From Bolinopsis microptera (taxonomy: Eukaryota > Ctenophora > Tentaculata > Lobata > Bolinopsidae), in assembly GCF_026151205.1 (NCBI RefSeq), contig NC_087072.1, positions 8,927,669-8,991,668 of the forward strand: a DNA stretch of 64,000 nucleotides, in the 5' to 3' direction. Of the stretch, positions 13,256 through 63,700 are shown piece after piece; the first letter of the stretch is position 1, and each line of letters starts with the position of its first letter. Position numbers and translations under genes: made by a program. The notes below the pieces were generated by a model. The model saw only the letters and a list, made by a program, of their open reading frames with translations. It searched no databases and was not told the DNA's origin.

Positions 13256-13462
13256 GCTTTGTCAACGGTAACAGAACACTGCGGCTCTAGACCAGTACAG
13301 GTCGAAAAATATAACCGGGACATCTGTCTCGTTAGGACTGCATGCGGTTCATCGGGTGCGAAGGGCCAGCATCCCTTCCACCTCAAATAACAACGCTACA
13401 GAAACAACAAGGAAAACCGTGATAGGAGTGATTCTCGGAATGCAAGGAATGGTGATTCCAGT

Positions 13463-16400: not shown

Positions 16401-16610
16401 TTTGATTGGACACCTGCTCACGGCCGAAGATCACGTGGGCGGCCAAAAAAGAATTGGCGAACCTGTGTCCTAGAAGACGCAGTAACATTCACAGGAGATC
16501 CAGACATTGTATTTGATAAGGTCCGAGAGTTGGCAGGAAACCGAAAGCACTGGAGAGAGATGATACGACATAAGCGGCAATTCCTTGGTGCAGGCCACTC
16601 GAATGATTGA
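13463..16610 (+). pseudogene. LINE (non-LTR retrotransposon) endonuclease-reverse transcriptase, broken
   Basis: Encodes, in order, an APE-type endonuclease (LGTWNVLSL near 13610; GDFNAK near 14030; NQIDHV near 14240; GSDHYLV near 14330), a reverse transcriptase (NHKSPGIDE, GFRKNRS, FVDFKAAFD, and the catalytic YADD near 15777-15790) and a C-terminal segment with LLYGSEVW, RLRWFGHVSRMP and GRRSRGRPKKNW. The frame changes about three times (near 13965, 14045 and 14420) and an in-frame TAA at 15528-15530 splits the RT, so this copy cannot make the full protein. The 5' UTR probably starts near 13260. After the stop comes only a very short 3' end with 'tatcaagtatcaagtaagta', a simple-repeat tail. 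The compact structure and tail suggest an RTE-like clade, but clade assignment needs a tree. Confidence 0.85.
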
Positions 16611-18673: not shown

Positions 18674-24210
<5,537 letters not shown>

Positions 24211-26215: not shown

Positions 26216-26573
26216 CTGTAGGATCTACCTGATGGCATACGGGAGGTAAATATATTACCACTTATATATCGTTCAAAAATATCATAATTTAGGGAAAACT
26301 TGGAATTTAGTTTATAATTAAAATATTCAACTCACAATTATTTATTTAGGTTATCAACGATTAAAAGATAAAAGTTTACAACTTTTTTTGAGAAGTGACC
26401 ATCACTACTATTATCCACACCGAAATTACAAAGACTTGGACACTGATTTAGCACTAGTTAAAATTCTAGTTAAAATCAAACAAAAACATACAGTCAGAAT
26501 ATACTAAACAAATTCCATCTCGTCAACTTTAATAAATTACCCTCAGTAAAAAGTCTAAAAACAGTTCCAAATC
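26216..26573 (-). promoter_or_regulatory. 358-bp UTP18-CTNNBL1 intergenic region
   Basis: Contains an AATAAA hexamer on the minus strand at 26341-26346 (228 nt after the UTP18 stop) and the CTNNBL1 5' leader. No TATA element evident. Confidence 0.4.
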
Positions 26574-29500
26574 TCAATAAGACGGATAGTGTGTGAGTCT
26601 GTAAAGAAGAGCTTTCCCCTTGGTGGTCCCGACACCAATATAACCAGAGTTAGGAGAAAAGTGCATATCTGATACGTGGGCTAGGGGTGTGTTGGAGGTG
26701 GGCCAGTTTGGAACACATTGAAGAGAGTGGAGGTTTATCAGACGGAGCGAGTGTTTCAATTCCTGGGGAGGGATTATTTAATTAAATCATATGAAGAATT
26801 GGTTAATTTTTTGCTTTAGTCAACACTGTCCGGCACGCTCAAGTCACTATGTTCATTCTTTATCAACAAGCAGGCTTATTAAAAAATACATTCATTGTAT
26901 GCATGGAATGCCAATTCGCATGCCAGTCCATTCTTAGGTCACAGGGGTCACAGTTGGATATTTTCCGACTCATTCATCAAATTAGTTCCTGTCTAAAGCC
27001 AATTAAAGTAAATTAAATAGAGCCAATCAGATGATGTAGATCGAACGCCGATATAATTCAGTTAAAGGACCAGTTAACTGAAAAATAGTCTCCAATTTGG
27101 CTAAGATTTAAATCAGCTGTGACAAACTGGTAAAGAATCGTATCGCCGAAAGAACCAACTCTCTAGCGTACGTGTAACGCGTGTTATTGCAATAATAAGC
27201 TGTGGCCTCGTGACGTCATAAAGTCCCTCAGTGCGCGCTTGCATATAGCGTAATACATTGCAAATGTTTATCATCGTCAATAAAACACGTGTAACTCACT
27301 CAAATTTTAGAATTATGACTATTACCCTAGTTCTCCAAAATCCTTATAGTTTTGGCTATCATCCTAACTAAAGGAATAGCTGATTGGCTGTACAGTGCTC
27401 ACGTCATGATTATAAACAGTGATATAGGTTCTTGAACAGTGGCGGGTGAATGTACGGTTAGAAAGTTTCTGCTATTACAACTTATGTCATATGTGATAAT
27501 TGTGGATTGATTTCATTGCTTAATTACACAAGCAGGGAGACTTTACCGATTATTTTTCCCCAGTCCATGAAACTCTAACGAATTTAGAAAGGATCTAGAT
27601 AAGTAGGAGTTTGTTCAATTCCGAGAGCAATTATATTTATAGCATAGCGAAATTTCTAACTTTAATCCGAATGTGTCAGCCAGTACAGGAGACAAGAAGT
27701 CTGGCTACTTTACGGCCGTTCCTCTGGGACCATTAGTAGAAGTAGCTTCTATCAGAACAGTCACTCAACAGTGCCGTGGGAACAGAATTCCCGCCAAAAT
27801 ACCCGGTCTACCAAATAGTAATACTGATTGGAGTGTACGGTGTGAGGTGTGTTTTGAATTAGACTTACGGCTTACCTAGTTGTTATCCTAATTGCATTAT
27901 CATCGGTACATAACATAAATAAACTACTGGTAAGTTTAAATACCAAGTGCAAACGTGTTCAGTCAATCGACCCACTTAACAACTATAGAATCTCCAAGAC
28001 CCTATTATTCTCTGGCCATATAATACGGCACGATCGATTGTTAGATGGCTAAACGACCAACGTTAATCTATACAATTCTAAAACTATGAGCTAGCACTTT
28101 AATATAAAAATACACTTTTTATATTACTCCTGATTTTTACATTTCATGTAAAACATTGTCGCCACAGGTTGATCATGGACACTAACAGCTTAATTTGAGA
28201 TAAATGACTTATGAGTTTCTCTAAAGTTAACTCTAAAGTTGTGTAGTCCAGTCATTTATGGACATTTATGGAAATGAACCTGCAAATGTTCTAATACTCA
28301 CGAAACTTTGCACAGACCTTCCCGAAGTTATGAATAAACGATTTTCGTTTGGAGACATTTTTTTGACCGTGGAGAAAACCCAGGAGGGCCACGCCCATAT
28401 TGACCCAATAACATAACCGACCCCTTGCTTCTGAAGGTCGTAGAGACTTCAAAATAGGCTTAAACGAAGCCGCATATGCATGTTTATATAGGAGTTATTG
28501 AGCAACACATGGCCTAAAATCCATACTTTTCGATAAATTCGCCTAAAACCATTTTGGGCGTGGTGCTGAGCCCATTTTCGATCGGATCGTGATAGTCTTT
28601 AGACAGGGTGCAAAAGAACCGCAATTAGCATATTAATATATGACTTACGAACAAACATATGCCTTAAAGTGCTTACTTTTTCAGTTATTGGCGAAAAACT
28701 GATTTTCGGTTCCAGAAATCATGCAAAACTATGGGTATCTGGTAAATTGGGCTATGAAGGCCCTAAAGGTTTTTGAATGTGTGTAAATTGTGCAGAATGG
28801 CCATGTTTATATACAACTTATGAAGCAAAATGTACCCTAAATTACTTACTTTTCGAGTTATTCGGGGGAAAAGATTGTATTATGTCCATTTTCTACCTGT
28901 AAAATACAGTCTAACGAGCTCCTCTGCGCGCGCAAGGGACTTTATGACGTCATCGCCAAAATAATACAAACGCTATTTACACGCGTTAGAGAGCAGTTAG
29001 AGATTTAGGAATTTCGACTCGTTGCTTAGTTTGCTATTTGTCACATTCTGTCAAAATATGAGGATAACTTTTTTTTCAGTTAACTGGTCCTTTAAATCAA
29101 CTCTAAAGAAGCAGGACATCCACTGGGCACTGAGTTAAGAACACAAACCTTGCTAGAGATAGCGAGCAATTCTCCAGTGGAGTTGAAAACAGTCCTGTCA
29201 ACCTCAGTAGTCAAGTTCATGAGAACACGCAGAGGTTTACTGCTAGTTTTATAGATATCGTCCTTGTTGTAGATGTTGACCACTCCACTGTCACTTCCTA
29301 CTGCTACGTGACGTGACGAATGTCCTATCGAGGTCACGTGCAATGCGCCGTCGTCCTAGATGAATTGCATTTTATTTGTTTGCTATTAGAGCTGATGTTT
29401 ATCAATTTTTCGGAGGTAATAAATTCAAGGAATTTTAGTAATTCCATAAACGTTTAGACCAAAAAAGGACAACGAATTAAATGAAACTGACCTGAAATTC

Positions 29501-30771
29501 GTTGATAATTTTCCATGTTCTCATATCCCACAGAGAACAAAAACCACCATGTCCCGCGGTTAATATGATATTATCAGTCAAAAATGAACTGCAATTAATC
29601 CGCGTGCGATGAGTAATACACTTCACAAGTTGCTTATCTTTAGCACTAAAAACTGAAAACAATCCATCATTGCCCTGAAACCCCAGATATTCTCCATTTT
29701 CTGACAGCACAAAGTTTTTGTAGTGAACATCCGGCCGATTTCTGATTCCAGCCATTTTGATTGCGGTACACTTGTTAAGATCAAACGTGTAAAAATGCGG
29801 TCGCTTTGATCCCAAAATAACCTCACTGCCATCGGCTGTAAACTTAGCACAGTCTATAGGAAAGTTTGCGAAATGGTGTCTATGAAGGTGCTTGTTATTT
29901 TCCCCGTCAACTTCAAACAAGTCTAAAGATTTGGAGTAGCCCGCAACAAAGCCAATAGTAGCGGCAGGATGAAACTCAAGAGATTTAACAACACATTTAG
30001 CTCCTTTCCGAGAGTTGAGGTTCTTACACCGGGTTACGGATAACTTCTTTACAGGGAGAGATTTACTGGGCTGGGTCATGTGACCTGTTGAGGCCAGGAT
30101 TGAGGATTGGGAAGTCTTGTCACCAGTCGTCCAGTTTGGAGTGCCGTGGATCTTTTTGAACTGAGGTGAAAAGTGGGTTAATTTTTTGATTTTCCGTTCA
30201 ATGGTCTGACCAAAATCATCAGAATAAAATTATGGGGATTTTAAGAAAAATTGTTGTTAATAAAGATAATTTATTTTCCTCGAAATATCGAAATTTCCCG
30301 CTTTAATAGGACCGTTCCTGCTTACCTGACTCCTGAGCTTGACCTCCAGCTGCCTCCCTGACATGGTGTCACCATCTCCCGTCCTGAGCTTCTTGGTGAT
30401 GTTCCTGTCACCCAGACTGATCTCTCTGTCACACTCCTCCTCGTCACTCCACACTGCACGCTTTTCTCCTCTGTCTATCACAAACAGCGCATCATCTGGA
30501 AACAAAACAGTGTCAGTGGGATGCGGTGATTTCTTATAATTATCAGAGTTCCGAAACAGAATAACTGGTAAAAAAGTCATCACAATGAAGTCTCACCATG
30601 TGACGTTGATGGAGCCTTGTTAACAAACTGCTTCTCGATATCACCGAACAGTTCATTTTCTAGCTGCTCAGTTTCTGTCTGCAGATCAGGGGTTGTGGTG
30701 GATATCTCGTATGATTCAGTTGGTATAACAGGTTGTTTCCTAACCCCACCATTTGCACCTCGACGTAACAT
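26574..30771 (-). CDS. UTP18: U3 snoRNP-associated WD40 protein UTP18, 5 exons, 469 aa
   Basis: Exons: 30597-30771, 30326-30495, 29492-30160, 29149-29355, 26574-26762. All junctions keep phase (1410 nt). Residues 1-115 are acidic and low-complexity with LFVIDRGEKRAVWSDEEE, the conserved UTP18 linker before the propeller. WD40 blades follow (VVKSLEFHPAATIGFVAGYS, FCSLWDMRTWKI, VAVGSDSGVVNIYNKDD). The last exon gives the diagnostic end (HFSPNSGYIGVGTTKGKALL, then YRLTHYPSY). Known role: component of the SSU processome (UTP-B) that recruits the exosome helicase Mtr4 for 18S rRNA maturation in the nucleolus. The final intron is 2.4 kb because a 2-kb inverted-repeat element sits in it. The human protein is longer (556 aa), mainly in the N-terminal region. 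Confidence 0.9.
27062..29095. mobile_element. 2-kb long-terminal-inverted-repeat element in UTP18 intron 4
   Basis: The ends are TTAAAGGACCAGTTAACTG on the left and CAGTTAACTGGTCCTTTAA on the right, with TTAA at both borders (27062-27065, 29092-29095). The inverted similarity extends inward for about 190 bp ('gacgtcataaagtccct' at about 27213 and its complement at about 28938). A piggyBac-type TTAA target is one reading. The interior has about three diverged repeats (period roughly 180 bp, 28470-28880) and one short frame (27673-27879, beginning STGDKKSGYF) of unknown identity; no transposase motif was seen. Confidence 0.75.
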
Positions 30772-31403
30772 TTCTACTTGTGGTTATTTCATTGAGTTTA
30801 TTTAATTCACAACAAATATCTCATTCATAGCAGATCTTTTTTGTTGTTGGTAATTTCAGTTGTTACATTTTATTGTGTTGAAGGAGTCCTGTTCTTAGGC
30901 ACGTTTGGAGACCATAGATTTTCAGTACAATTTCAAGTAATGACAAAAGTTTATATATAAAAATAAACTGCTGTTTTTAAAATTATCAATACGGATTATA
31001 TTGAAAATTAAATACAGTTTATTACTGTAAAATTATAAATAATATCTTCGGCAGTCGACACTTAAACAAATATATGTGATTCAGGCAGATGATCGGAAAG
31101 CAGCTCTGTGAGAAAGCAGAACTCAAAAGTGCACCTTTCCATGAAATGTAAACATTGTCAAGCACTCAAGCAGCACGTGGACTAACACGTGACCTAGCAG
31201 CACGTGGGCTTACATTAGTGGGTTGGTGGGTAAATCAGCTGCTATCATAAATCTTAACATTCAAACAAATATGTATCAAGTAACATCGTCATTAAAAGAC
31301 TTAAGGCTGGTAACCAATAAAAGGTACATTTCAACAACAAGTCCCTCATGTTCAGTCAAGTGTTTTATGTGTTATGAGGGTGTTTTTGTTTTTAAAGTCA
31401 CAG
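30772..31403. other. 632-bp spacer between Nova-like gene and UTP18
   Basis: AT-rich, presumed 3' UTR of the KH gene and leader of UTP18. CACGTG words occur at about 31173, 31187 and 31201. No additional coding sequence seen. Confidence 0.4.
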
Positions 31404-34219
31404 TTAATTTCTTGGTCCACCTCGTCCACGGCTTCCCCCTCTTCCTCTAGCGTTACCACGGTCTCCACCAGCACCACCACTTGGGGCACCACCTCTACCT
31501 CCAGCTCCGCGGCTGTTGAATCCACCTCTTCCACCGCCTTGGTTCCCTCCACGACTACTCTGGAAACCGCCACGACCACCCTGTAAGTTGCCTCCTTGGT
31601 AACCTCCGCCTTGGCTGTCACTTGGCTGGAAACCACCTCTCTGATTGCCACCCTGATAAGGTGCACTTTGGTTTCCACCTTGGAATCCACCTTGGCTACC
31701 ACCCTGGTAACCACCACCACTTCCTCCACTACCACCCTGGTTGTACCCTTGGTTATATCCACCTTGGCCTGGATTACCACTAGCTGGTGTCTGATTGTAG
31801 CCGCCTTGTCCACCTTGGTTGTATCCACCTTGACTGCCCTGGTTATATCCACCTCCTTGGTTGGGGTTATTGTAACCACCACCACCAGTGCCGGGGTTGC
31901 TTCCATAGCCACTACTCTGACTGTCACTGCCTGGGTATTGCTGAATTGGGATATTGCTGGGATTGCTGCTGTTGTTGTTGGGATACTGCTGAATGTTGCC
32001 TTGGAATTGTCCGGGCTGACCAAACTGTTGAGTTGCTGCGTTGCTACCGTATTGTTGCACAGGCGGAGTAGGGTTGTTGAAGTTTCCTCCCATGTTTCCA
32101 CCCATGTTAGGTCCAGGTCCACCAATTGGGGCATTGGGGCCAGGTCCTCCCATGTTGTTGTTGGGTCCGGGTCCACCCATGTTGTTAGGGCCAGGTCCAC
32201 CCATGTTGTTGAAGCCGCCCATGTTGTTGACTGGGCCAGGAGGACCCTGACTGCCAGATCTGCCGACTGGTGCTACGTTAGGGGCTGGAGCGCCCTGACT
32301 TCCAGCTCTAGCTCCGTATGTTCCTCCTCCTCCCATCTGATTGTTGTACTGAAAAAGTGCAGATAAAATATATACAAAATCACCAAGAAGACATATGCCT
32401 GAGTCTCATTAAGACAAATATCGGGATCTCGTTGAGATGTAATTTTAGGAATCATTGTTAAAATAAGACCGAACAAATAAATATTAAAAAAAAACAAATA
32501 TCTTACCCCTCCTTGGCCGCCGCCCTGGTTGTTGAAGTTACCCTGGTTGTTCTGATAACCACCACCCTGGTTATAACCACCTTGGTTACCAGCTGGAGCA
32601 GCAGCAGGTGCGCCACTCATGAAGTTGTCGTAGTCTAAGTTCTTGTCAGTTCCACCATTGTTCAGTTGCACTGACATCTCCAGGATCTACAAATATACAG
32701 ATTAGTGACGCAGTCAACCAGGGGGGGGGGGGGCGGGGGGGCCGGGGGGAGGGGGGGGGGGGAGTCAACCAGGAACAAGACACAACCAGGAACAAGACAC
32801 AATTGAACGCTTGTTTTACATTGCAATGAAATATCAAATACTTTTCTGAAGTGGTTCACAAGTTCAGTTATACTCACATCCTTGATAGCTTTGAGAGTGT
32901 TGTCGTTGTCTCCAGACACCGTGATGGTCCTCTCCTCTAACCCAGGGATAGAGTCGTCTCTGCCCATAACTTTGATCCAAACACTAAACTCGCTCTTCAG
33001 CCGTTTCACGTTCTCACCACCTTTACCGATACACTTTCCTGCTGCGTTAGCTCCCACTACTATTTTACACTGCTTCTTTCTTGTCTCGTCTATACTCGGA
33101 CCTAGGGTACAATGGTGGGTTTAGTGAGTGTGTTTAGAGAAGGTAATTCTATTGAGCTGACTAAACTTACTTACTAACTTATACTACCCATCTCGCTTAG
33201 AATTAGTTTAATGTGGCTATGGCTATATTATATTATAGTATTTTTCATCAATAATTGAGGATATGACAGTTATTGAGGAATGAGGATATGACAGTATGAT
33301 AACAAATAAAACTCATGAAGTGTAGGTGGTGACACCTATGAAGTGGATACTAACCTCGTCTGGGGTTATCGTTGGCTAACTTCTCCTGAATGGTCTGTAT
33401 AGCTTTGACAATGTCCTCTGGGACACCCTCAATGTAGCAAGGTCTCTCGTTGGTGTTTGGGAAATATTTGTCGTTCTGAGAGGAAAAAAGGTGAAGGATT
33501 TATATACTAAAGTTCTAACTAACAGATAGTGTAAACAAAACGCTGGTATCTAATTATAAAACAGAATTATAAAACTTGCATTCTGCGCCAATTTTCTCTG
33601 TCAAAAGCAATTTAAATCATCACATGTGAAGGATTCAGTGAACAAAATCTTGAATAGTCAAAAGAAACTAATATTATTATCATTATATATAATATGATAC
33701 ATATATTATTATGCATTTTACCATCAGCTGAAGGAAATATCACATAATCCGGATAGCATGGATGATTACCTGAGAGAGTCTGATGAAACAACTGCTTTCT
33801 TCTTTTAGTTTCTTCATTTCTTCGCCTCCCTTGCCTATGATTGCTCCCACAAGAGAGTTAGGTACCAGAACCTTCATTCCGATTGCTCCTGGCTTCATTT
33901 GCTGAAATGTCCCCTCGTTAAAGAGTGGTATTGTTACACAGAACCAATAACCAATATTTTTTAACGTATATCTCGGGTAACGTTAGGAAAACAGCAAGTT
34001 AGTACTTTATCTTTGGCTAACTAACTAGTAACTATGCTATAGTTAGTTTTACCCCACCAGTTTTTTCCTCACCTTGAAACCCCGATCCTCTCTTCCGTCT
34101 CTGTCGCCTGCCTCGCTCCTCCAGGGGCGTTTGCGCTCTTCGCGTGAATCACTGCCACGTTCTCCACGGTTATCAACATCACTGCGGCGACCACGGTCTC
34201 GAGATTGGGTGTCGGACAT
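31404..34219 (-). CDS. Two-KH-domain RNA-binding protein, Nova/PCBP-like, with Gly-rich tail, 6 exons, 582 aa
   Basis: Exons: 34073-34219, 33770-33901, 33355-33475, 32878-33101, 32507-32686, 31404-32348 (1749 nt, all in phase). An Arg/Asp/Ser-rich N-terminus (1-49) precedes KH1 (about 58-120; GxxG loop GKGG at 72-75; then NTNERPCYIEG as in Nova KH1) and KH2 (about 144-207; GKGG at 159-162; RTITVSGDND). From about 225 to the end the protein is low-complexity: NNMGGPGPN repeats, then GGYNQGGxQ repeats, then RGG boxes (GGRGGF, RGRGGSRGRGGPRN). The known family binds YCAY-type or pyrimidine motifs and controls alternative splicing. No KH3 was found, unlike Nova or hnRNP K, so orthology is open. 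The prion-like tail suggests condensate formation (inference). It is the first gene of the four-gene minus-strand block. Confidence 0.85.
32721..32762 (+). repeat. G-rich tract in KH-gene intron 4
   Basis: Forty-two bases almost all G on this strand (interrupted by C, CC and A), lying within 35 nt of the exon 5 acceptor on the sense side. Flanked by a short duplication 'agtcaaccagg'. On the sense strand this is a C-run, possibly acting as the polypyrimidine region and as a site for poly-C-binding KH proteins (inference). Confidence 0.7.
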
Positions 34220-48708: not shown

Positions 48709-51700
48709 ATGCCTGTTCTAGGTATGGAGGCTCTTGCGGGGCCCTGTCACTCCGCTAACACATTCAGAGGTGCTCGACTCTCACCCATCAAGAAGGTCAG
48801 CCTGTCACTTTTACTGCATCATCATTAATTTTGTTGTCATTACTTTTATGTCTGCGCTGTCTTTGTGCTTGTTGTGAAAATGAAAATCACATAATATGCC
48901 AATTGCATGTCCTTGTATTGTGCAACACTTACATTCCGACCACCGCCCACCACATACAGACCACCTTACTGACAACCGTGCACAAATTCCCAAATCTTAT
49001 TCTCCCAAATTCTATTCTCAAATCGCGAACTTTAGGACATTCCTTGGTGTTTGATTCTCTGAATTCCTAACATAGCATCTCTGAGCGGGTGTTTGCGTCA
49101 ATATGAGGCATAACACACGCTTTAAATTACTGTGAGAACAACATGTCCAGACTACAAATATCTCAAGTTAAGAATAAAGAATATGATAGCAAGGACGGAC
49201 CACTACATGGTACATCAGCCACACTTCATACGACAAATCAGCTAGTTTCACGCCCCCTTTGTATCTCAGGTGGTTCCAGTAAGCCCTCTCCCTGGCTCCC
49301 CAATACAACTACAAGATGATATCCAGTTCGACCCCTCCTCCAGATACGTTACACCCGGATCAGTTGGTGGCTTCTTCAGGTTTCTTTATTTTCCTCGTTT
49401 GTTATTATCTGTTTCTATTTAACGTCTTTCTAACTGTCAACTAAATACCATGCAGGAATTATTGAGAAAGTTTAGAAGATCTTACACAATTCTTTGATGA
49501 AAACAAAATAAACAAGCTAAACTTAAGAATACAAAACATATTAGCTTAACTAATAACAAAACTGTGTTTTAAAGTTGGAATTCTACAAGACTAAGAAGTT
49601 TCTGTGTTTAAAATGTTCAACTCTTGAGTAGGTTTAGCTGCTAAGGTAAAAACAAAATGGAATGAAAATAATAATTTGTTTAAAACAGATGATTGAAGCA
49701 ATTAGAACTATTAGTATTCTGCGAACGATCCCTAACAGAGCCGATTTCGGACTGCTCGACACACACTAGCCAATCACAGGGCTTTATTCGGACCACTCGA
49801 CACACACTAGCCAATCACAGGGCTGTATTCGGACCTCTCGACACACACTAGCCAATCACAGGGCTGTATTCGGGCTACTAGCCAATCACCAAGTATTCAA
49901 ACCACTCAGACTGATATCTGGTTTGTGACGTGCGAATTTACACAATTACAATGGTCCATGGTTAGAGCGGTGCTCTTGCCAAACAAAGTGCTCCGTTAAG
50001 ATTACATTTCTTAGACCAACTTGTATTGTCTGATAGTCTACAAGTTTACCACAAGTAAAGATACGTTCCATACAAAATAAAGTGTTATCTTTAAACTATT
50101 AGTATTACCAAACAATTATTGAGCTCACGAGTTTCTGGAGTGGTTAAGCGGGTTACTTTGTAACTAAAATAGATTGTTTTAGAATATCTAGATCAATTTT
50201 ATTAAAAGCTTTATTGTTCTCGAAAATCTAAAATTATCAACCATATTGTCATGTAGATTGTAGAATTAATCGTCAAAAATCACTAAGTTAAAATGGTTAC
50301 AACAAGTTGTTACTGAAACCACTACTCAATGAAGAATTAGGGAAATAGTCACTAGATTCTTGAGAGAGCCGTGTTCTTTTAAAAGGCTCTCCAAACCCCT
50401 TGTACTGCCCTACACCATGTCCTACACCAGGGGTGTAGGAATGATTTTCGTCATGGGGGGGCCAAATTCAAAATATTTTTTGGCGCTTCGCGCCAAATCC
50501 TGAATTTCGAGGGTAAGGGCAAAAGGAAATTGCAGCATGTGCGGTATCGCGATTTTTCACGTTTGCCGCGACAAATCGCGATTTTTCAGATTCTGGCCTC
50601 ACGACAAATCGCGATTTTTTTCAGTTCTCCGCGTCAAATTGCGCATTTTCCTTTAAATCTACGGACCAAATTCGCGTTTTCTATAATTAGTAGGTATATG
50701 AAACCAATCAGTATCGCATCCACAACCTTCCGAATGTAGGCACGGACTTCAAAAAACCGAAAACAGAAAAATATATTTTCGGCTCAGAATGATCAAGGTA
50801 GCATGAAACATGAACAAAAGTAGTTTCCAGAAAAACTTTGAAAAATTTTGACTTAGAAAATTTTCGGTCCGAGTCATTCTCGATACGTACCTCTGAAAGC
50901 AGAGCTCCCGCTTCCAAGCTCGTATTGCGAAGGGGAGGCCTGCCTTCCGAGATCGCATTACAAAGGGGAACCCTCGAGTCCAAAAACATACATCGAACTT
51001 CGAAAACCGAAAAAAATATTTTTGGCTCATAATGATCAGGGTAGCATGAAACATGAACAAAAGTAGTTTCCAGAAAAACTTTGAAAAATTTTGACTTTGA
51101 AAATTTTCGGTCCGAGTCATTCTCGATACGTACCTCTGAAAGCAGAGCTCCCGCTTATGAGCTCGTATTGCGAAGGGGATGCCTGCCTTCCGAGATCGCA
51201 TCACAAAGGGGAACCCTCGAGTCCAAAATCATACATCGAACTTCGAAAACCAAAAAAAATATTTTTGGCTCATAATGATCAGGGTAGCATGAAACATGAA
51301 CAAAAGTAGTTTTCAGAAAAACTTTGAAAAATTTTGACTTAAAAAATTTTTGACTAAATAAATTTTCGGGGAAAAAATTTTTAGAAACCTAAATTAAAAA
51401 GTTGGCCCTTTTTGGCCCCTTGCCCAGATTTCATGGGGGGGCGATGGCCCCCCCTGCCCCCCCGCTTCCTACACCCCTGTCCTACACCATGTCCTACACC
51501 ATGTCCCACGCTGTGACTTACACTAGGGTACCTCCTCACTCTATACCTTAGTTTCCAACACCGCTTATAGACCATGTAACTGAGGAGGACCAGGTTGCTT
51601 AGCGCAAGCGCTACAAGCGAACAAAGTGCAAGCGCTGAATAGTAGTACGCAATGCTGATGAGCCGCGTATTGTGTGCTATGCTAATAACAAGGAGAGGAG

Positions 51701-54700
51701 TGGTGGTGAGGACGCAGAGACCTGTACAGAGTTGCACTAGATCGTGGGGGAAGTCTGTTTTAACGGTCAGGGGGTATATCTTGTTAAGGAGAATAAGGAG
51801 AATGTTAAGGAGCTGCAGGAGTGAGAGGTATCCGAGTGTTAAGAGTTGGTAGATTGATCTGGGGGAAGTGAGCTCCTCCACCAGCAGGGAAAGTATACAG
51901 ATGTCTGTGGAACCGTGTAGTGTGTTGTAGGTTACTGAGAGCTCCTGGTGGTGTCCCACAAACATTTCCCCGACTAGCTTGTTGATCTGTGTCCATGTGC
52001 GCGGCTCCTCGTTTCCCCCATAATACTCACTCACTAGTTCCTGAACGTGCGCCCTGCTCCCGTTACTCAGAGGAAAGAGATCATATCTAACTTCTCCTGC
52101 AAACAAGTCATGAACCATGTGACTGTGAGGAAGATACGCGTAGGTAAACGATAAGAAGTAGATCAGGATAACCAGAGTGATAGTTGTGTTTGCGGGACTG
52201 CAAGCAGTGTTGCGTGGAACTGGTTCCAGTGGGGGGATGGAGCGAGTGAGCTTGTAACGAGATGAGGCAAAGTTAGACAAAGCAGACAATGTTACAACTG
52301 AGAGAAGAGATCCTGTGCTCAAAATACCAAGATGACTGCATGTGTCAGACCTTGTCCACGAGTCCCTGCTGTAACAATAGTGGGGGAGCGCGTTTTTGTG
52401 GTCTGCGCGTACCCGCCAGCTTAACAAGAACACATACGATCCAACACCGGCAGAAACAAGCATTCCTCCCCTCAGGAGGAGCAGGTTGGTAGTTTTGGTG
52501 GGGTATTTGAAGTAGTCAGAGGAATGCTGGTAGGTGAGGTAGAAGAATGTGAGGATGTTAATGATGATGCTGAGCGCCCCCGCGATGATGATCAGGGTCT
52601 CCACTTGCTCACTCCCAAATATGTAGAACTCAGTGGATAGGAATGTTGTCTGGTTACACCCTACCCCACACTCGTCACTTGAGTCAGGGCAGTCTGCCAC
52701 ACCGTCACATACCTGGTAATACAGAACAGTTGAACTTACATTCCTACTCCTATTTGCCTTGTTTACCTTTATGGCCCAAAAAAGGCCAACAAAATCTGTT
52801 CAAGGCCCAAAAAAATCTTTGGGTGTTTCATCATCAGGCTGTAAATTATGGATAATATTATAAGGCCAGGTTTTATCGAACGTTGATATTGCCGTGCTTG
52901 AATATTGAGATTGAAAGTGGAAGTGAAAGGGAAGTTGCAAACCTGTTCGAATCTGATGTACTTGACAGGAGTGGAAGCACATTTGAAATGGTTAACACAG
53001 TTCTCCTCATCCTCCCAGTGCCCACAGTCGTTCAGAAGGTCACACACTTGCTCTGCAGTTATACATCTCTTATCTGTACACTGGTAAACCTGTATTGTTC
53101 AGATTAGTTTCTCTTTCTCTTTCATTTCTCCAATTTACAATTGTTTAATTTCACTTTCACTTTCATTTGTTCACATTTTGTCCTGATATGATTCAGGGTA
53201 CAATGTACATAAGGATTACTGAACTATATATAGATTATAGTCCAACAATCCTTATGTATCCTTTGTAAATAACATTTGTATATATTCACATTTTGGTCGG
53301 GCCAATATTGTTTATCAACATCCACCAAATGTTTGTCGACGTTCACTTTTGTACAAGAACATATGAATCTGTTAACATCAGCTGGTATAGGCCATAACCC
53401 ATACCAAAACACTAAATACTCCAATGTATTCACTGACTGTGTATTCTGTGATAATAAAATTCATTTTTTTACATAACCTGTCAAGAAACAGCATTTCTTG
53501 TGATTGGAGAGTAATCACTTCATAGCGTGACGTCATAGCGTGACGTCATAGCGTGACGTCATAGCGTGACGTCATCAAAGTGTCTGCTGATGGCTACATA
53601 TCAGCTAACAGTAGTATTAATGATCAACTGTAAACGATATACACTCGTCCAAACAAGTGTTAATATTGCGTGTAAAGTGCGTGTGTGTAAGACTTATCCC
53701 GATGTAAAATATGGCATGCTTTTCTCAAAGAATAGTCAGCTGTAATACATATATGCTGCTTTGGCAAAGTAATTTCACTGTACATAATATACGCGTGTTT
53801 AGTAAATATGTATTGGAATTAGTGTAATTGCTCCGCTAATATTCAGTATAACTTCTATTTTAACACGTGGGAGGTTAGTATCACGAAATATACATGGTTT
53901 ACTCTGAGTTTATTTTCGGCCTGGTTTATTTTGAGCATAATCTCTCTATAATTAGGGCTTCACAGATGGTATAATCACGCACTGTATCAGGTGTGTACCC
54001 TCACAATGCACTAGATATTCTAAATACTTTCAAGAAAAAATTCCAAATATTTAATACTTTAATAGTTATACGTGATAAATTCTCTATAGTTTTATGAATC
54101 TGGTGAGTATGCGGAATGGGAGGAATTCATGATATCACCGTTGAGTGTTCATTCTAATTTACCTACTTAGAATGATTAATACGATCAGTGTCACGTGTCT
54201 CGTTATTTGCACGTGTCTCGTTATTTGCACGTGTCACGTTATTTGCACGTGTGTTTACATGTCCTGAACACAATATGTTGGATTGCTTCTAAATTCAGCT
54301 GATGACCTCCCAGCCGTTAAGCACATCATTACAAGCAGCCTGAATGTGACGTAGCCTCATTATGAGAGACCCCTTATGAATCAACCCGATATTGACAGCA
54401 GACAGACTTACGAGTGGTTGTAGAAATAAGAAAAGCGGTCCCTGATAATGATATTAACGGTGATATTATCGTCATCGCATGAGTTGCGAAATATTTCCTG
54501 GTCTGCTATATTTAGACCACTAGTATTGTGTCTGATGAATGGTAATAGTGTCGAGCAGCATTCTCTAATAACTGTCAAAAGTATCCACTGATTGTAGCTT
54601 TAATGATACTACTGTAAAATGATTACTCAACACTCTGTTACTGTGAATATTTGGCTTGACTTTGGGGTGTTATTCTTGAGTTGTTCAGCGCTAAAATGGC

Positions 54701-57700
54701 TACATTTTGCCCAATTTAATGGGTTGGAACATATTATAACAAGAGTGAGAAAGTAACATTATAAATAACTTCTCGTCGTCAGGCCATCAACGACCTATCC
54801 ATTTTGATTGTCAGTTATAAATGTTCCCGTGCATAAAAATCTGACTGTTTTACACGATAATGTAGTGAGTAGAATAGAGCGACTAGTATGTATAGGGTAC
54901 AGTAAAACTCTGATTTACCGCGGTTTACAAATGTAATTAGATATTTGTTTAAAAGAAGAAAGATGAACAAAACTGACCAAATTATGATAAGTATCAGCAG
55001 GTGAGATCCTGGTGAACACCTGTAGTGTGTGGTCCCATTCTCTCAGACTGACTGCTAGATCCTCGTTCCTGCAATCCAGATCTTCTACTGGCTTGAGTAG
55101 CCGGGTATTAGCCTTCTCCTGCTCGCACAACCCTGCCAAGTGGGCGGTAATTAGTTATAATTAGCTGTAATCAGCGAAAATGAGCTTAATTTGATAATTG
55201 GGATGATAAAAATGGAAAGTAAGACGTAAGATATCAGTCAAATGAATTAAATAATAATGCTATAAATTATGAGCAGTTAAGTTAAATAATTACCAACCTA
55301 AGTGTCCTAGTAATGTGTATTCAGCTCCAAATGCACTTCTACAATCACGTAGGGGCTTTGATTTGAATAAATAGGATTGTCTATCAGTCGACAGCTCGCT
55401 TGATAGATAGTCCACTTCCACGCTCTGTTAAAACGCAAGGAAATATTTTCAATGTTCAATATAAAATCTTTAACTAACTTGTGAATATTTCTGCTTAAAC
55501 ACTTCACCTAGAACAGTCATCACCTTTCTTTAAGAACTCCACAGTTGTGCGTATTTAATAACTTAACTCAGCCATTATCAAAAATCATAATCCTGTTAAA
55601 TTACGTATTGCACATCAATCTGACTTCTGCAAATGGTTGTTTCAATTTGTCCACGAAGAAAAATCATTAAACTTAGTCGATGTTGGTTAATACGTGACAG
55701 AATCACAGACGTTAATTGTTTAGCGTTGATTGGTGAGATCCGCAAGTTATCAGTTTGCAAATGCCCTGTCTAATATTAGTATATGATCATACTATATTAA
55801 ATTAGAATTAAATCAGCAGCCTGCAAAAACAAGCCTTTTAAAGCGAACTACTCACCACGCAGTCAGTAAGCTCTCTGTGGATGTCCGTGGAACCATCCTT
55901 TGTACAGTGCGCGCTATCATCTCTCACGTGGTCCCAAAGTGCACGCCGCGTACTCGGACCACAGTGCGACTCATCTATACCACTGAGACAGTTCTTGAGT
56001 CCGTCACACAGCAGGTCTCTGGACAGAACCTTGGCTTCTCCCAGCGAACACTTGAACCCTGCAAAATATGTTTGGAAAACTTGAAATATACTGAAAGAAT
56101 CGATTTTTGTTATCTCAAATCTGTCTTGTTTCACCAGCTACAGTGTTTTTCTGAAAAGTACGTGTGTCGTGTATGTGTAGACTTGTTGAAGTGATGACGT
56201 CATCACAAAGTTGATGACGACACCAAGAACCCGCTACTCACTATTCGGTTATTATAACGGGTGATAGTGGTATTACACACTGGAAACTGGTGTGATTATC
56301 ATGTGTAGTATAAGGTCAGTATTATACTACTCATACTACATTTAGTCAAGCAATGATGGACAAAAGTTGTGCGGACGTCACTTTCTTCTTCAGTTATCGG
56401 ATTGCTCGAACTTTCGAACAAAGCGGAATTAAATTATTTCACCAGGAAATTTAACTGGGATTAATCAGGAATTTGTCGGGAATTTGAAAGGGACGGTTAC
56501 TGTAGAAGGTTTGTATATGGTTCAAGAATTAGGCTGTACATATTACGTTGGTGTGTGCTTGATCAATCTTAACAATGGTAATATGAAGAAATGAAGTCAT
56601 TGCTGTAATCTGATTCAGTCTTATCAGTAAAGACCGATAAACAACCTCTAAATGAAATACTAAAATTAGCATTCTTTTTTGACTTCTGTGATGTGATTGA
56701 TAAAGTGTAAAATTAGTGAATTTAACAATGTCAGGAGTGACGTCAGAAGATTCCTTAGATAACTGAGAATTGTTAGATGTCAATGAAAACAATACCAAAA
56801 GTGGCTAATAAATCTGCAATCTGCATCCATTTTTTAGATAAGATTATGACTTCAAAAGTCTGCAAATTAAATTATCGACCGTAACATGATCAAAGGAAAC
56901 TAATCATATTAGTTTAGAACTAGAATCATATTGACGTCATCTGGAATATTGTGGATATTCTGTAGAATTCTACAAAACTCTTGAAATCCAGTTCACGCTT
57001 CTTTCGACGAATTATAATTTGTTTAAACAACTAACTTCAAATTTGTTTGAACGAATTACAACTAACGTCATAACAGGCGATCGTTTAAACTCATAAAATA
57101 TTGACGTAGCAAAAATTTACCATGAAATCGTTTTGAAATACGATACGAGTTGAAATGTCAACTGCTAAGGGGTAAATAAACAATAACATAATAACAATCA
57201 GATCACAGATGATCACAGATGGTTAGGGACGGACGGACGGACGGACAAACCTTCGTGTTCAGTACACTGGAGCTCGTCAGTGCCGTCCCTACAATCTGAG
57301 ATACCGTCACAGTGTGACAATGCTGTGTAACATCTTGACTTGTCATTACACTGGTACCACAATGTCTCATCCTCATCAGAGCCGTCCAGACAATCGTCTA
57401 CCTGTGATCCAGACGATATATTAGTTACACTGTGTAACATTGTGTAACACTGTGTAACATTGTGTAACACTGTGTAACATTGTGTAACATTGTGTAACAT
57501 TGTGTAACATTGTGTAACATTGTGTAACATTGTGTAACATTGTGTAACACTGTGTAACATTGTGTAACATTGTGAAACACTGTGTAACATTGTGTAACAT
57601 TGTGTAACATTGTGTAACATTGTGTAACATTGTGTAACATTGTGTAACATTGTGTAACATTGTGTAACATTGTGTAACATTGTGTAACATTGTGTAACAT

Positions 57701-60700
57701 TGTGTAACATTGTGTAACATTGTGTAACATTGTGTAACATTGTGTAACATTGTGTAACATTGTGTAACATTGTGTAACATTGTGTAACATTGTGTAACAT
57801 TGTGTAACATTGTGTAACATTGTGTAACATTGTGTAACATTGTGTAACATTGTGAAACACTGTGTAACATTGTGAAACACTGTGTAACATTGTGTAACAT
57901 TGTGTAACATTGTGTAACATTGTGTAACATTGTGTAACATTGTGTAACATTGTGAAACATTGTGTTATATTAATACATATAGCGTTGCATAGTGCCAAAT
58001 AGTGTTATTCTTGACTTCAGAGCTAATATCAGTAAATGTATGGCGACTAAAATGAGCTTATTTATTATCAAACTCAGTAAACTAGTGAGATGAACAAAAC
58101 CCCCAACACATTAAACAAGCCTTTGAATCTACCACCGCTTAGTCACACGCACACACACACACTACACATACCACTCTCTCACAGTGCCCGAATAATAATT
58201 TGATATTAATGCACTGGAGTATTGGTTCTGAACCCAATAATAACAGTATAATAAAGTAGTAGCTTACCCCGTCACACAGCCAGAGCTCAGGCACATAGCT
58301 AACTGAGCCGGTAAATGTTCTAGAACTTTCCGAACACTTTACTTTCTTATCACAAACTTCCGCCTCGTCTATTCCACCTGACAGGATGAGGTTCGTATGT
58401 CTTAGTAAACTCGTTATCTTTGACAATATAGAGTGTAAAACACCGGGAAATGAATTCATCACAATATTCGACATATGTTCGGGAGCGAAATACTAAATGT
58501 ATAAAATATACAAGTTTTTACAGGGATATTACGAGTTGTCGTATACTCGTAATTTTATAAAATATTTAGCCTACTTTATTGACTGCTAATATGTAGTCCA
58601 CTGTCGTTATATCGAGTTACTCAGCCGATATAACATTTGAATATTAGATTCTAACATTTATTATACGCTTCGAGATTAAAAGTATACCCAAAGAAGATGT
58701 ACATTTAAGTAATTTAAGCGAAATATTAATAATATTTTATATTACTGCACTATAAATCGAGCATGTAAATTGTAAAGCGCCTGTCTTCAATTCTTAAGAG
58801 TGAAAGTGAAAATGAGGCTTTACCTAGACAATCAGAAATTCCATCGCAAATCTGATGTTTGTGGATGTGTCGAAAGTGGGGGTGATCAGTTGATGTCTTG
58901 TTTCTCCGCAAGCATTCCTGAGAAAGGTCCTCACAGAGAGCTGAGTCCAAGTTGTCAACACATCGACCATCAGCTTCTCCCTGACACACCTTATCTCGGG
59001 CTAGTGAAATAAGTAGCCCTGAAAGTGAAAGTGAAAGTGAAAGTGTATTGGTTAGCTCGTGCATTATCATACTGGGCAGGATCAATAATCTGTTTATTTA
59101 GACACATGATTTCCTTATTGGCCTTTTAATTTCAACTAATGTCACTATGTCATGAAACATTAACCCACGATGACATACCAGTATCAGTTGGGCACCTCAA
59201 ATCGTCCCCTTCCCGTCCCGTGTCGTCCCCAACTAGTCCCATATCGTCCCCAACTCCTTCCTCGCTCTTGTCACGGGAGGCAGTACAGTTGGACTCGTCG
59301 CTGTGGTCATCACACTCGTGACACCCGTTACATACGAACACCTGTCGATGTGAAAGTGAAAGTGAAAGTACTTCTGGAAGGGAGACGCTCATGTTTCGGT
59401 ACTGATAGTGAAAGTGAAAGTGAAAGTGATAGTGAAAGTACCTCTGGAAGGGAGACGCTCATGTTACGGTACTGGCATGTTACTCCGGTGACTGAACTGC
59501 AGTTCCATCTACGGGGTTTAGGAGAACATTTAGTAACATTAGTAAGGTTATAATTATTATAGATACATATATATATATTAAGACGCAATGAAACTAACGG
59601 ACCACGATGTATGGGGACTTCTATATATATTTTAGTGTCTCATTTCCAACTGATTATTTGTGAAGAAGAACCATCAAGGCCGCCTATCATTATTTAATGA
59701 TATGTAGATTATGCCTATTATTACACATGCCGCCTGTATACCTGTTCTATTAAGAATATTATCTGTTACCACCCATAAGAAATACCTGATATACTCTGTC
59801 ATGAAGTCCAGAGCTATGACCTGGCACCTGTCCTCTATCTCTATAAACTTCAGATCTTCTGTCAGTCTTGTCAGCAATTTCTCGCACTTTCCTCCGCACC
59901 TAGCTCACAGCAGGTTTTATAAATCATGGCTCAAAGGATTGCATATAATCACAAAGTCTGGAACATGCAACAAGTTCACGATTACGTAGATAGTGTGCAA
60001 ATACCAAGTTTTGATAAAGAAAATAGTGCGCAGTAAAGCGTCACAAAGATAAATTACCTAATCTCATCCTCGTCACTATTATCTTTGCAGTGTTGGACTC
60101 CGTCACAAATGTTCTTGTCAGGGAGCCATTTAACACTGTCACTGTAACCATGGGATAACACTTGGGCACACACTACACCTGTAATGATATATATGTACTT
60201 TCAGGGGAGAAAGTAAAAGTGAAATAAATTTGCCGGTTAGTCGTCATCCATCGCGATGATATAGCTTCTAGGTAGAAATGGAGTATGTATAGTGGTATGA
60301 TAGCCCTGTATAGTTGCCCTGTATAGTTTCCCTGTGGTCTACCACTCGTGATGTTGAAAACATTCAAAGGATATTTTCCATTGTCTGTTATTTCAAAGCA
60401 GCACGCCAAAAAGTGAGAGGTGCTATTTTGATCTAGAAATGGCATATGTTTAGTTGTTTTAGTTTCTTTCTAAAAGAGTATGCCTGACTTGCTCTGAGGT
60501 TACCTCCTCTTTGAAGTCATGATATTAACATGCTCCCCAATAGCTGTGGGCAGTGATCTAACATAAATCATAATGGTAACGGCTTATATTATAATGTTGT
60601 TACTTTTAATAAGATGACAAGCAACCACCCCCTTTAATCGGCCACACAAACGCTTTAGCTTTATTGTTTAATAAACCGCTCAATTTAGGGTCAAACCACA

Positions 60701-63700
60701 ACAAACTATTATTTTCAACGATAACTCGAAAATCAGTTAGAGTCCCAATCTCACCGTTCCATTTGTACCCTGGTATAAAGTGAAAGTGAAAGTGAAAGTC
60801 AACTACCTCCTTGGCAGTGTTCCTCGTCCTCATTATTTCTACAGTGTTTGTCTCCATCACAGATGTGTTCCTGTGACACTGCCGCATACAGGTTAGGGTG
60901 AGCTGATATCTCAGAATGTACACAGAACAAATCCTCCTTCTCACATCTGAAATACGGATTGTATATCTCCGAAGTTTCTTTTTTCATTGCCTGTCAAAAA
61001 TAAATTCCAGCATACAAAAGGAATGTTAAAGAAATGGTAAATCCCTAGGAAGGAATGTGACCTGCCGTCCCGGATTGCCGTCCCCCGACACCCACACAGA
61101 TGATACCCGTACTGCTCTCCAGTGCAGGTCCCCTCTCTTAGACCCTGGAAATAGCAGTCCCCTCCTTCACCGTACGATGCTGTGTAGTATTGTCCTGGGA
61201 ATGTGGCACTCTGTTTTAGGAATTTAATGTTCTTGGGTCAGAATACTTTGTTCTGTAAATTCTTTTAGTAGAAAAAAACTGTATCCTGCACCAGAAGAAT
61301 GTCTTCTGATTCAGCCAGTTTTTTTCTTAAAAGAGCTCATTTCCATCGACTATCGCCATTAATTCCTACATTCCACAGAGGATAAAAAACAAGATAAGTA
61401 AGATATTGTTACTAAGTAGCAAATTTAAAAAATAAGTACAAATTAAGAAACCTGGAGCCTCGAAACATTCGTAGATGGTTCGAGTTGAGTTGAGGATATC
61501 TTGACACGTGTGCCTCACGTGACTTTGTATTATCTTGAGAGGACAATGTCCGGAGTGAAGAAGACATCTTGCTAGTGGTAGTGCCACTACCGACCAAAAC
61601 AAGAAAAACATGGCCGAGCTCAAACAAGTTTGAACTTTGATCTAAAATCGTTGAGCTTAAATACTTAAATAGTTCTGTTTGTACGTGAAACGATTAGAAA
61701 TTAACTAGAAATTGTGATACCGATTTGGAATGAACTACTGGCTACATTATTTTCATCCGGAAATGAATGAGCAACTAACAATAGAGTTGATAGTAGTGAT
61801 GGATGCCTTTGTCAAGGCAACAAGTCATATTGTAATCGAACGTGGAGACCGATTTCTATTGCACTGATAATGATTGTCTGTGCGAATAAGAGATTATGTA
61901 ATTGTAAAGCGAATCACCAACACTACCTTGTCTCGGTAGAGATTCTTCACGTATAATAACATGGTAAGATATTCATCATATCAAAATATTCTTGAGACTG
62001 TGCTCCACGTGCAAATGATACCGAACCCTTGCACGTGCAAAAGACAGCAAGTTAACATTGCAGTACTCGTGTTTCCGGAATGACGTAACAATTCGGGTAT
62101 AGGGAGAGTAGTCTGCTGGTATTGACTATTGAGTCTTCACTCTTCACTTAATTCTCCACTTAATTCATGAAACATTAATTTTGTAATTTATGTCGGATAT
62201 TCCACATAATGTCAGTTACATGTCAAAAGTTATGTAACCTTATCATGTAATGGTAGGAACTGTTGCGAACATGAGTTTTGAAACTGACACTACTATTGAT
62301 AATAAGATAAGTGTAACACGGTATTATGAAGGAGTATCAGAGTGGGTGTTTTATAGAAATCAGCTTCTTGAACTGATTATTCTAATTTCATCTCAGCCAC
62401 ACAGGCAATCTATCTACGATATCATTAATCAGCCACTCCTCCTCTTCTTTTAAGGTTTAACCTCTGTGAATATGTTATACAGTTCGAACTTACAACTAGA
62501 AATAAGCGCCCGTATGAAATATGCATAATTTAGATCTACACGATTTTTGTGCACGCTTAATTTGCAATAGAATGTGTCAAGATGGCAAGCTCAGCCAAAA
62601 AAGAAGATCTTATGTTTAACTTTACTGCAGTTCATGTAGAAAACGTACCAGATATTTTATGATATAAATAGGACGGCTAAATTCCCATCTAAATTCCCCG
62701 TTGACAATTAAGTCTGAGTATTTCAAGGAGACTATAAGAATTAAGAATTAAACATTAAGTTGAGCTAAGATCAGTATAATTTTGGGACCTTTACTGATAG
62801 TTGAAATTCGACATATGACGTCATCTAGCGTCATCTAGCGTCATCTAGCGTGAAATATCGCCAGATGATGATAGATGACGCTAGATGACGCTAGATGACG
62901 CTAGATGACGCCAATTAGCGACATTGTCGCTAAGTGCACGGCACCTTTCGAATGTCGCTATCTATCTGGCGATATTTCACGCTAGATGACGCTAGATGAC
63001 GCTAGATGACGTCATATGTCGAATTTCAACTATCAGTAAAGGTCCTAATTTTGGACATGTCAGATTTAAGGTATCTGAACACAATTTTCTATCCAGCGGG
63101 ATGCGATCTATTGGATAATATGGGCAAAATTGTAAAATCACCAAGAATCGCACCACATAATTTATGACATATCAACTAAAAATTTGCTACAACGTAACCT
63201 CTTATTTCCTATGAACTTGCTACAATTTTGCTATAACGCTCTCACCTTTTCAGTACAAGAACCCAAGTCCTATCAGTAACCTTGCCCTCACTACACAACG
63301 ATTTCTACGTTCCAGCTAGGGGCTTCATGAAGCGACCTGTTGCTTCCAACAGATTTGTGGTGAGTTACCATGGTTACTGTTATTAGTTACTACGGTCACT
63401 AAATTGTTGACATTCTTCAGTTCATAGAGCACCGTTATTACTTGTTGTTTTAGCTAACAGATATTTAGATACCATTATATAATAATGAATCGGTGCCCGG
63501 TGGTATGCATTCTAATCGACCCGTTTATGAAATTACGCTGCATACCGTATTTATGTGAAGCAAATTGAACCCCAAATCGTCCTCGAAAACATTTTGGTCA
63601 CGTGATATGCATCGAAGTCGCTGGTTGGTTAGTTCGGATGATTTGGAACTGTTATATAGTGTTCCCTCTATTTCCCTCTATTTCAGCCAACCGAGGGAAG

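Follow-up and report, generated by a model that had tools for sequence, protein, structure and literature searches.

The gene that we analyzed in a window of 64,000 nucleotides from the ctenophore Bolinopsis microptera (the window being the whole stretch of DNA under study) is best explained, with a probability of roughly 85%, as an atypical, intron-rich member of a large, presumably lineage-specific receptor family that lacks leucine-rich repeats (LRRs), which receptors of this type normally have, and joins an ectodomain of LDLa modules to a class A seven-transmembrane (7TM) domain derived from LGRs. Two genome searches, with 105 and 106 scored matches, 37 of which were common to both, indicated that this family comprises at least 174 distinct loci in the animal's own genome, including the locus in the window. 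The count is a lower bound, and the two lists do not form a sample suited to capture-recapture estimation.

The gene was modelled on the minus strand from position 61611 to 51381 as 15 exons with GT..AG introns, with all joins in phase and a product of 1091 amino acids. Rejoining the exons reproduced, at its exact span, the model predicted in an earlier, sequence-only reading. The signal peptide, Cys-rich start, LDLa modules and 7TM-like C-terminus claimed in that reading were all recovered in the product. Exon 1 (61452..61611; this and all following features lie on the minus strand) contains the ATG start codon, a signal-peptide-like segment that is hydrophobic over residues 1–19 on the Kyte-Doolittle scale, and a GT donor, and exon 2 (61062..61194) encodes a Cys-rich N-terminal segment that weakly resembles some paralogs. 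The acceptor of exon 3 (60807..60946) lies directly before position 60946, so that exons 2 and 3 are in phase; this exon carries LDLa-like module 1, and the paralog alignment starts there at about residue 118. LDLa-like module 2 is found in exon 4 (60058..60178; exon model and paralog alignment), and the exon model assigns a linker segment to exon 5 (59786..59899) and the first half of LDLa-like module 3 to exon 6 (59442..59508). The second half of this module, a sub-threshold LDLa match, is followed by an acidic linker in exon 7 (59179..59341).

Exon 8 (58824..59018) encodes a divergent Cys-rich segment and the start of an LDLa module with the sequence HKHQICDG, the HKHQ motif of which is common to paralogs. 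According to the paralog alignment, exon 9 (58268..58377) completes this module and contains the first half of the next, which ends in exon 10 (57251..57401) together with one more LDLa module; exon 11 (55856..56058) adds an LDLa module and the start of a family Cys-rich domain, which ends in exon 13 (55020..55132). Between them, exon 12 (55298..55424) carries the part of this domain with the sequence DCRSAFGAEYTLLGHL, which compares with DCR..YGE.YV.L in the paralogs (blastp and alignment). An LDLa module (best Pfam stretch, residues 601–630) and the first half of the last LDLa module are located in exon 14 (52943..53089; Pfam and alignment). Exon 15 (51381..52712) comprises the end of the last LDLa module, the 7TM domain, as recognized by hydrophobicity and paralog alignment, and an uncertain C-tail up to the stop at 51381.

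The frame of exon 15 extends over 472 amino acids from stop to stop, whereas no frame longer than 187 amino acids arose when the region was simulated 200 times with a first-order Markov model. Scored by the codon usage of paralog frames, the modelled frame was preferred in all 15 exons, a preference that was helped by stops in the other frames. The true 3΄ end of the gene is uncertain because the C-terminal ~45 residues (after about residue 1046) enter a repeat of 12 bp that lies near a tandem repeat of 243 bp. The locus is described as a predicted intact, intron-rich receptor gene. A search for a second copy within the window yielded nothing beyond matches of the gene to itself, cross-hits between LDLa modules and matches at chance level, and no match was found at E ≤ 0.01 in the 50 kb flanking it on either side.

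The Pfam family Ldl_recept_a matched the window protein with an E value of 4e-29. Nine stretches were detected at the lax cut-off of E ≤ 10 and 9–10 modules were counted by eye, in agreement with the earlier estimate of about nine. No LRR match was obtained in the window protein using Pfam, nor was any LRR family found at E ≤ 0.001 in a set of 28 frames (the last exon of the window gene and 27 paralog frames), so the reported absence of LRRs held in both. Seven C-terminal hydrophobic peaks (Kyte-Doolittle; residues 687–705, 727–745, 776–794, 824–842, 939–957, 976–994 and 1008–1026) match the seven membrane segments that had been proposed. The large loop that had been noted between TM4 and TM5 is likewise present (DLFAGEVRY..WTQINKLVGEMF..HGSTDIC, 51897..52109; residues about 850–920, counted by eye and placed by paralog alignment). 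This second extracellular loop (ECL2) is also long across the paralog family, with 75–78 residues in the five paralogs measured, and its extended motif W..I..LV..MF with the loop cysteine is present in the window protein; the W, M, F, G and C residues were invariant in an alignment of 29 sequences. No counterpart of the long loop was seen in the alignments of LHCGR and RXFP1.

We compared the full window protein with the paralogs using blastp, and all 30 paralog frames matched at E ≤ 1e-3. The best high-scoring pair (HSP) aligned residues 351–1043 with the single-frame paralog L024 (E = 3e-50). In a six-way alignment, the window protein and the paralogs were co-linear from about residue 118 and shared the fusion of ectodomain and 7TM domain, namely the HKHQ-type LDLa module, the DCR..YGE.YV Cys-rich domain and the two terminal LDLa modules. 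Because one HSP spans both parts in a single-frame paralog, the LDLa exons and the 7TM exon appear to constitute one gene. The sequence-only reading had suspected a lineage-specific family; the family exists and is larger than guessed, as counted within one genome. All 13 paralog pairs had dN/dS ratios below 1 (0.11–0.55 for the 7TM domain and 0.18–0.94 for the ectodomain; significance not assessed), with ectodomain values of 0.94, 0.78 and 0.72, not far from 1, among some closely related pairs. In the paralog tree, the terminal branch of the window gene measured 7.08 changes per column with an unresolved placement; because of this length and placement, we claim neither sister relations nor 'ancestral introns'. 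Separately, the first eight LDLa loci in the genome gave LDLa matches only, and a PF00001 search of the same genome, in which 147 of 1680 candidates were scored, listed for the most part short frames of the ordinary class A kind.

Searched alone, neither the window protein nor its last exon matched any GPCR model or structure in the Pfam and PDB-sequence searches, and 7tm_1 had no significant match in the window protein. In the set of 28 frames at E ≤ 0.001, LDLa and 7tm_1 were each detected in 26, and no family was detected in the last exon of the window gene; at E ≤ 0.1, 7tm_1 was found in 27 of 28 paralog 7TM domains. A PDB profile search with 28 paralogs, excluding the window sequence, ranked LHCGR (2.5e-27), RXFP1 (1e-26), FSHR (1.1e-24), TSHR (1.7e-22) and LGR4 (1.7e-11) ahead of somatostatin receptor and rhodopsin (4e-11 to 6e-11). 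LGRs were the closest solved GPCRs to the family 7TM domain whether or not the profile included the window sequence, which by itself gave no such match. The profile search of the last exon that had been recommended earlier reached no GPCR family directly, and reached 7tm_1 and the LGRs by way of the paralogs. The recommended structure prediction of the C-terminal part also yielded a model, which was poor (single-sequence AlphaFold2, mean pLDDT 43.9) and provided no GPCR fold match: Foldseek returned 65 matches at E ≤ 10 and none at E ≤ 0.001, with no GPCR among the best 50 of the 65.

The paralogs carry the class A motifs GD-x3-G-x-YL, the TM3 Arg, TDF-x-CWVPF and NSVINPLLY. Judged by these motifs and the profile ranking, the family 7TM domain is a class A domain of the LGR/relaxin-like branch, to which the window 7TM domain is assigned only through its homology to the family. 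The lack of class A signatures that had been asserted applies to the window member and not to its paralogs. The window 7TM domain retains the TM3 and ECL2 cysteines, N1.50, P6.50, N7.49 and the ECL2 motif, whereas D6.44, W6.48, N7.45, P7.50 and Y7.53, all five of which are kept in 28 of 28 paralogs examined, are replaced. D2.50 and R3.50 are also replaced in an ungapped reading, although these two calls depend on gap placement, since MAFFT opens an 8-residue gap that brings a later Arg into register with Arg3.50. The homology of the window protein to the family does not rest on these switch residues. The 'SRY' that had been taken as a class A signature is out of register with the family: its Arg lies 27 residues past the TM3 Cys, compared with 25 for the TM3 Arg in 26 of 28 paralogs (in the remaining two, the script counted an earlier Arg first). 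Because the switch residues are replaced, the window member is likely either to signal in an atypical way or to act chiefly by binding ligand, as a partner or decoy.

We considered the possibility that the receptor remains fully G-protein-coupled, with the late 'SRY' serving as DRY and compensating changes restoring activation. This has some plausibility, as the Arg-Tyr pair lies just 2–3 residues past the expected position and the seven hydrophobic segments, both cysteines and P6.50 are retained; however, the replacement of five residues that no examined paralog has lost makes such a re-invented switch the less convincing account. Decay of a recent pseudogene, its membrane domain drifting without constraint, could explain the very long branch, the lost switch motifs and the entry of the 3΄ end into repeats, and among the matches listed 8 of the 174 family loci contain a stop. 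We regard this as unlikely, because an unconstrained frame at 19–26% identity to its paralogs should long since have acquired stops, whereas more than 1040 codons and 14 GT..AG introns are intact, and the Cys pattern, TM hydrophobicity and ECL2 motif persist.

The 1.9-kb intron between exons 13 and 14, in a model without cDNA, leaves room for a chimera of the LDLa exons of one gene and a neighbour's 7TM exon. Separate transcripts for these parts had been named as a refutation of the earlier model; co-linear single-frame paralogs with the same ectodomain–7TM order, and the HSP that spans the junction, speak against it, and render a chimera very improbable. An insect-type gustatory-receptor-like channel with its N-terminus inside, rather than a GPCR, is hinted at by one weak Foldseek row (Gr64a, E = 2.6, probability 0.06) from a model too poor to be trusted. 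It is hardly credible, given that the signal peptide and LDLa modules demand an outside N-terminus and that the paralogs match 7tm_1 and LGRs.

LRR-less LDLa receptors of the LGR/relaxin-like branch are already in print for Ciona intestinalis: the account of its LDLRR-GPCRs describes 14 receptors with one or 2–10 tandem LDLa modules, no LRRs, a 7TM domain like that of relaxin/INSL3 receptors and a lineage-specific expansion (PMC2396169). The ctenophore family shares this architecture, the TM domain of the window member only by homology. By that description it differs in its at least 174 loci and in a window member without most class A switch residues, and it may also differ in its family Cys-rich domain and long ECL2. 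GRL101 and other multi-LDLa type C LGRs, described from snail, starfish and cnidarian (PMC4079206, PMC6267866, PMC2396169), likewise combine several LDLa modules with an LGR-type class A 7TM domain; GRL101 has LRRs, unlike the window protein and the 28 frames. RXFP1, LHCGR, FSHR and TSHR provide the best PDB profile matches, and the family loop motif FYGNDGVC aligns with YYGTNGVC of RXFP1; however, RXFP1 has one LDLa module and the glycoprotein-hormone receptors none, and all have an LRR ectodomain (see also PMC4837482). The family also resembles published ctenophore-specific GPCR radiations, which are large and in some cases variable in copy number, in accounts whose consulted parts name no domain make-up. 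Among the entries listed in our searches of open-licence PMC papers, none described a ctenophore family of LDLa/7TM receptors; this does not show that the family is new to the literature.

In the explanation that we favour, the N-terminal ectodomain, with its 9–10 LDLa modules and family-specific Cys-rich domain, faces outward and leads straight into a 7TM domain whose ancestry lies in the LGR (glycoprotein-hormone/relaxin) branch of class A GPCRs. The LDLa modules and long ECL2 would catch an extracellular ligand, probably a protein or peptide, and typical members would signal to a G protein through the normal class A switch. The size of the family suggests that it may sense many external or internal cues, possibly including chemosensory ones. 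A bolder and rather doubtful proposal is that well over 170 such receptors with a new extended ECL2 form a system for sensing or for self/non-self recognition that evolved independently. In it, the window gene would be a conserved 'switch-dead' ligand binder without classical G-protein activation, its 14 introns preserving a gene structure that the amplified single-frame copies have lost.

The window gene is a caution, in that domain searches with it alone would read 'orphan', whereas its own genome provides the placement. It also provides a natural experiment on which of the class A switch residues can disappear from a receptor gene that stays intact. With at least 174 loci and a recognisable hormone-receptor membrane domain, the family is a direct candidate for the ctenophore GPCR repertoire, and it places the combination of LDLa modules and an LGR-type 7TM domain without LRRs outside bilaterians.

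The gene was rebuilt on the minus strand of the window (G000:C1:8927669-8991668 in the assembly), from the ATG at 61611 to the end of the stop codon at 51381, and the rebuild gave coordinates identical to those of the in-phase, 15-exon model proposed in the sequence-only reading (51381..61611), with GT..AG introns throughout and a product of 1091 aa. The modelled reading frame was top-scoring in 15/15 exons (codon usage trained on paralogs), and the last exon (exon 15, 51381..52712) lies within an open frame of 472 aa, compared with a maximum of 187 aa in 200 Markov-1 simulations of the region. As also proposed there, the product combines LDLa modules (Pfam, E = 4e-29; 9 stretches at a lax cut-off) with a 7TM domain: its start is signal-peptide-like and its C-terminal part shows seven hydropathy peaks. 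A PRKCSH-like Pfam match fell under the curated cut-off. Because a 12-bp repeat encodes the protein after approximately residue 1046, and a 243-bp tandem repeat lies nearby, we do not trust the C-terminal tail.

A 10-bp unit, ACATTGTGTA, is repeated approximately 54 times at positions 57427-57965 in the exon 9-exon 10 intron, an array that reads through as long spurious frames. By eye, the exon 6-exon 7 intron (59342-59441) nearly duplicates the end of exon 6 and also holds TTTCAC repeats, as if tandem duplication had produced it. TTTCAC/GTGAAA simple repeats occur in several introns (59020-59045, 59403-59439 and near 60780-60800), make up the stretch ahead of the exon 8 acceptor, and seem to give FHFHFH in L006, another LDLa locus. 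Elsewhere in the window, adjacent plus-strand open frames with endonuclease- and reverse-transcriptase-like stretches and frame breaks (13391-16610) resemble, by eye, a non-LTR retrotransposon. Neighbouring minus-strand frames, namely a DEAH-box helicase-like (21503-22162), a beta-catenin-like-1-like (24569-26224), a WD-repeat-like (29477-30229) and a KH-domain-protein-like frame (31352-33120), look by eye like ordinary housekeeping genes.

Neither the last exon nor its TM2-TM3 part had a GPCR match in Pfam or among PDB sequences, and the window 7TM taken alone is an orphan. The structure prediction proposed earlier did yield an AlphaFold2 single-sequence model, but its mean pLDDT was 43.9 and a Foldseek search with it returned 65 matches at E ≤ 10 and 0 at E ≤ 0.001; we gave this result no weight.

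It is the organism's own genome that places the gene, as a member of a large paralog family. We searched the 264,652,675-base assembly (232 contigs) with the last exon (best 105 of 400 candidates scored) and with the 7TM of the paralog L033 (best 106 of 581 candidates scored). Among the matches listed, the last exon retrieved itself first and then paralogs at E-values from 7e-20 to 1e-9 and identities of 23-32%. At least 37 loci were common to both searches, and their union comprised at least 174 loci, window included, on contigs C1-C13, C14, C15 and C80, which supports the suggestion of a lineage-specific receptor family. At least 8 loci had a stop inside a match in either search; the open frames that contain most of the matches listed are 600-1300 aa long. 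In most of the 30 paralog frames that we read, a long ectodomain stretch runs unbroken into the 7TM, and a few (e.g. L051) start only just ahead of it; most of these frames are themselves unbroken, whereas the window gene has 14 introns. The paralog locus L020 (G000:C9:1890147-1899146) has by eye an SRCR-like domain at its frame start, before the LDLa modules, and runs into N within the 7TM. Dense LDLa clusters with short frames at G000:C5:8083118-8106621 and G000:C2:14236243-14333002 are probably multi-exon LDL-receptor-related genes outside this family.

Excluding two incomplete frames left 28 paralog 7TM regions, 27 of which matched 7tm_1 at E ≤ 0.1 (best 1.1e-17). In the alignment of the window last exon with 27 paralog frames, LDLa and 7tm_1 were each matched by 26/28 sequences (Pfam, E ≤ 0.001), the window exon had no Pfam match, and no LRR family was matched, consistent with the absence of LRRs noted before. 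In the best 60 of 301 PDB matches (E ≤ 1), a profile of the 28 paralogs retrieved LHCGR (2.5e-27) and RXFP1 (1e-26), then FSHR, TSHR and an unnamed family-1 receptor (8w1z, 8e-17), and further down LGR4 (approximately 2e-11), somatostatin receptor 3 and rhodopsin (4e-11 to 6e-11); adding the window changed little. Profile positions of approximately 167-236 (TM4 to the loop cysteine), for which the alignments shown with LHCGR and RXFP1 contain no equivalent, are the large TM4-TM5 loop (ECL2) described earlier, which spans 75-78 residues from start motif to cysteine in five paralogs measured and approximately 71 in the window protein (manual count).

We compared the full window protein with the paralog frames, and 30/30 aligned at E ≤ 1e-3. 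Several HSPs start near residue 120, and the best, with paralog L024, covers residues 351-1043 in a single piece (E = 3e-50). A six-way alignment is co-linear from approximately residue 118 onward: it passes through the LDLa modules, then through a Cys-rich domain that the sequences share (DCRSAFGAEYTLLGHLGLC compared with DCRHAYGEYYVFLSCLGLC and relatives), the final two LDLa modules and the 7TM. The first 118 residues are only weakly similar to some paralogs. Because that HSP is unbroken and the alignment co-linear, the LDLa and 7TM exons are, on sequence grounds, one predicted gene and not two. As point estimates from interdependent pairs, dN/dS was <1 in 13/13 paralog pairs, at 0.11-0.55 for the 7TM and 0.18-0.94 for the ectodomain, whose top values (0.94, 0.78, 0.72 and 0.6) belong to very close pairs.

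Residue positions were assigned through motifs and are numbered as is conventional for class A (6.48, for example). Compared with the 28 paralogs, the window member retains N1.50, the TM3 and ECL2 cysteines, P6.50 and N7.49, and carries replacements in TM6 (D6.44 to C, C6.47 to T, W6.48 to T) and TM7 (N7.45 to L, P7.50 to L, Y7.53 to L). D6.44, W6.48, N7.45, N7.49, P7.50 and Y7.53 are present in 28/28 paralogs, and D2.50 in 27/28, its window counterpart being G (aligned) or S (ungapped, by eye). By script, the distance from the TM3 cysteine to Arg3.50 is 25 residues in 26/28 paralogs; in the other two an earlier Arg was counted first, and the aligned column is Arg in 28/28. In the window protein, residues 24-26 after this cysteine are A, S and S, and the first Arg, within SRY, is residue 27; MAFFT put a still later Arg in the column through an 8-residue gap. 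The claim that class A signatures are lacking except for SRY holds for most switch residues, but the SRY Arg itself is displaced from the paralog position. Because a tree with LHCGR, FSHR and RXFP1 left the window member unplaced (end branch 7.08), we do not claim that it is an ancestral form.

This kind of receptor is already known, and the present family is a variant of it. In Ciona, 14 receptors are described that join LDLa modules to TMs resembling those of relaxin receptors and that lack LRRs (PMC2396169). Molluscs and cnidarians have GRL101 receptors with multiple LDLa modules, which belong to the LGR branch, and the comb-jelly LGR described in the same study carries 20 LRRs (PMC4079206). 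GPCR radiations in ctenophores are reported, with no account of their domains in the portion available (PMC13231562), and no paper describing a ctenophore LDLa/7TM family was among the literature matches listed.

LDLa modules are Ca2+-stabilised protein-binding modules, and a ligand could be caught by the LDLa array together with the long ECL2. Typical family members would couple to G proteins, and the window member would probably signal atypically or act as a binding partner. In RXFP1, activation requires the LDLa module (PMC4837482). Because of the family size, and because a GRL101-like receptor is raised in starfish sensory tentacles (PMC6267866), our guess is that this receptor family may have a chemosensory role.
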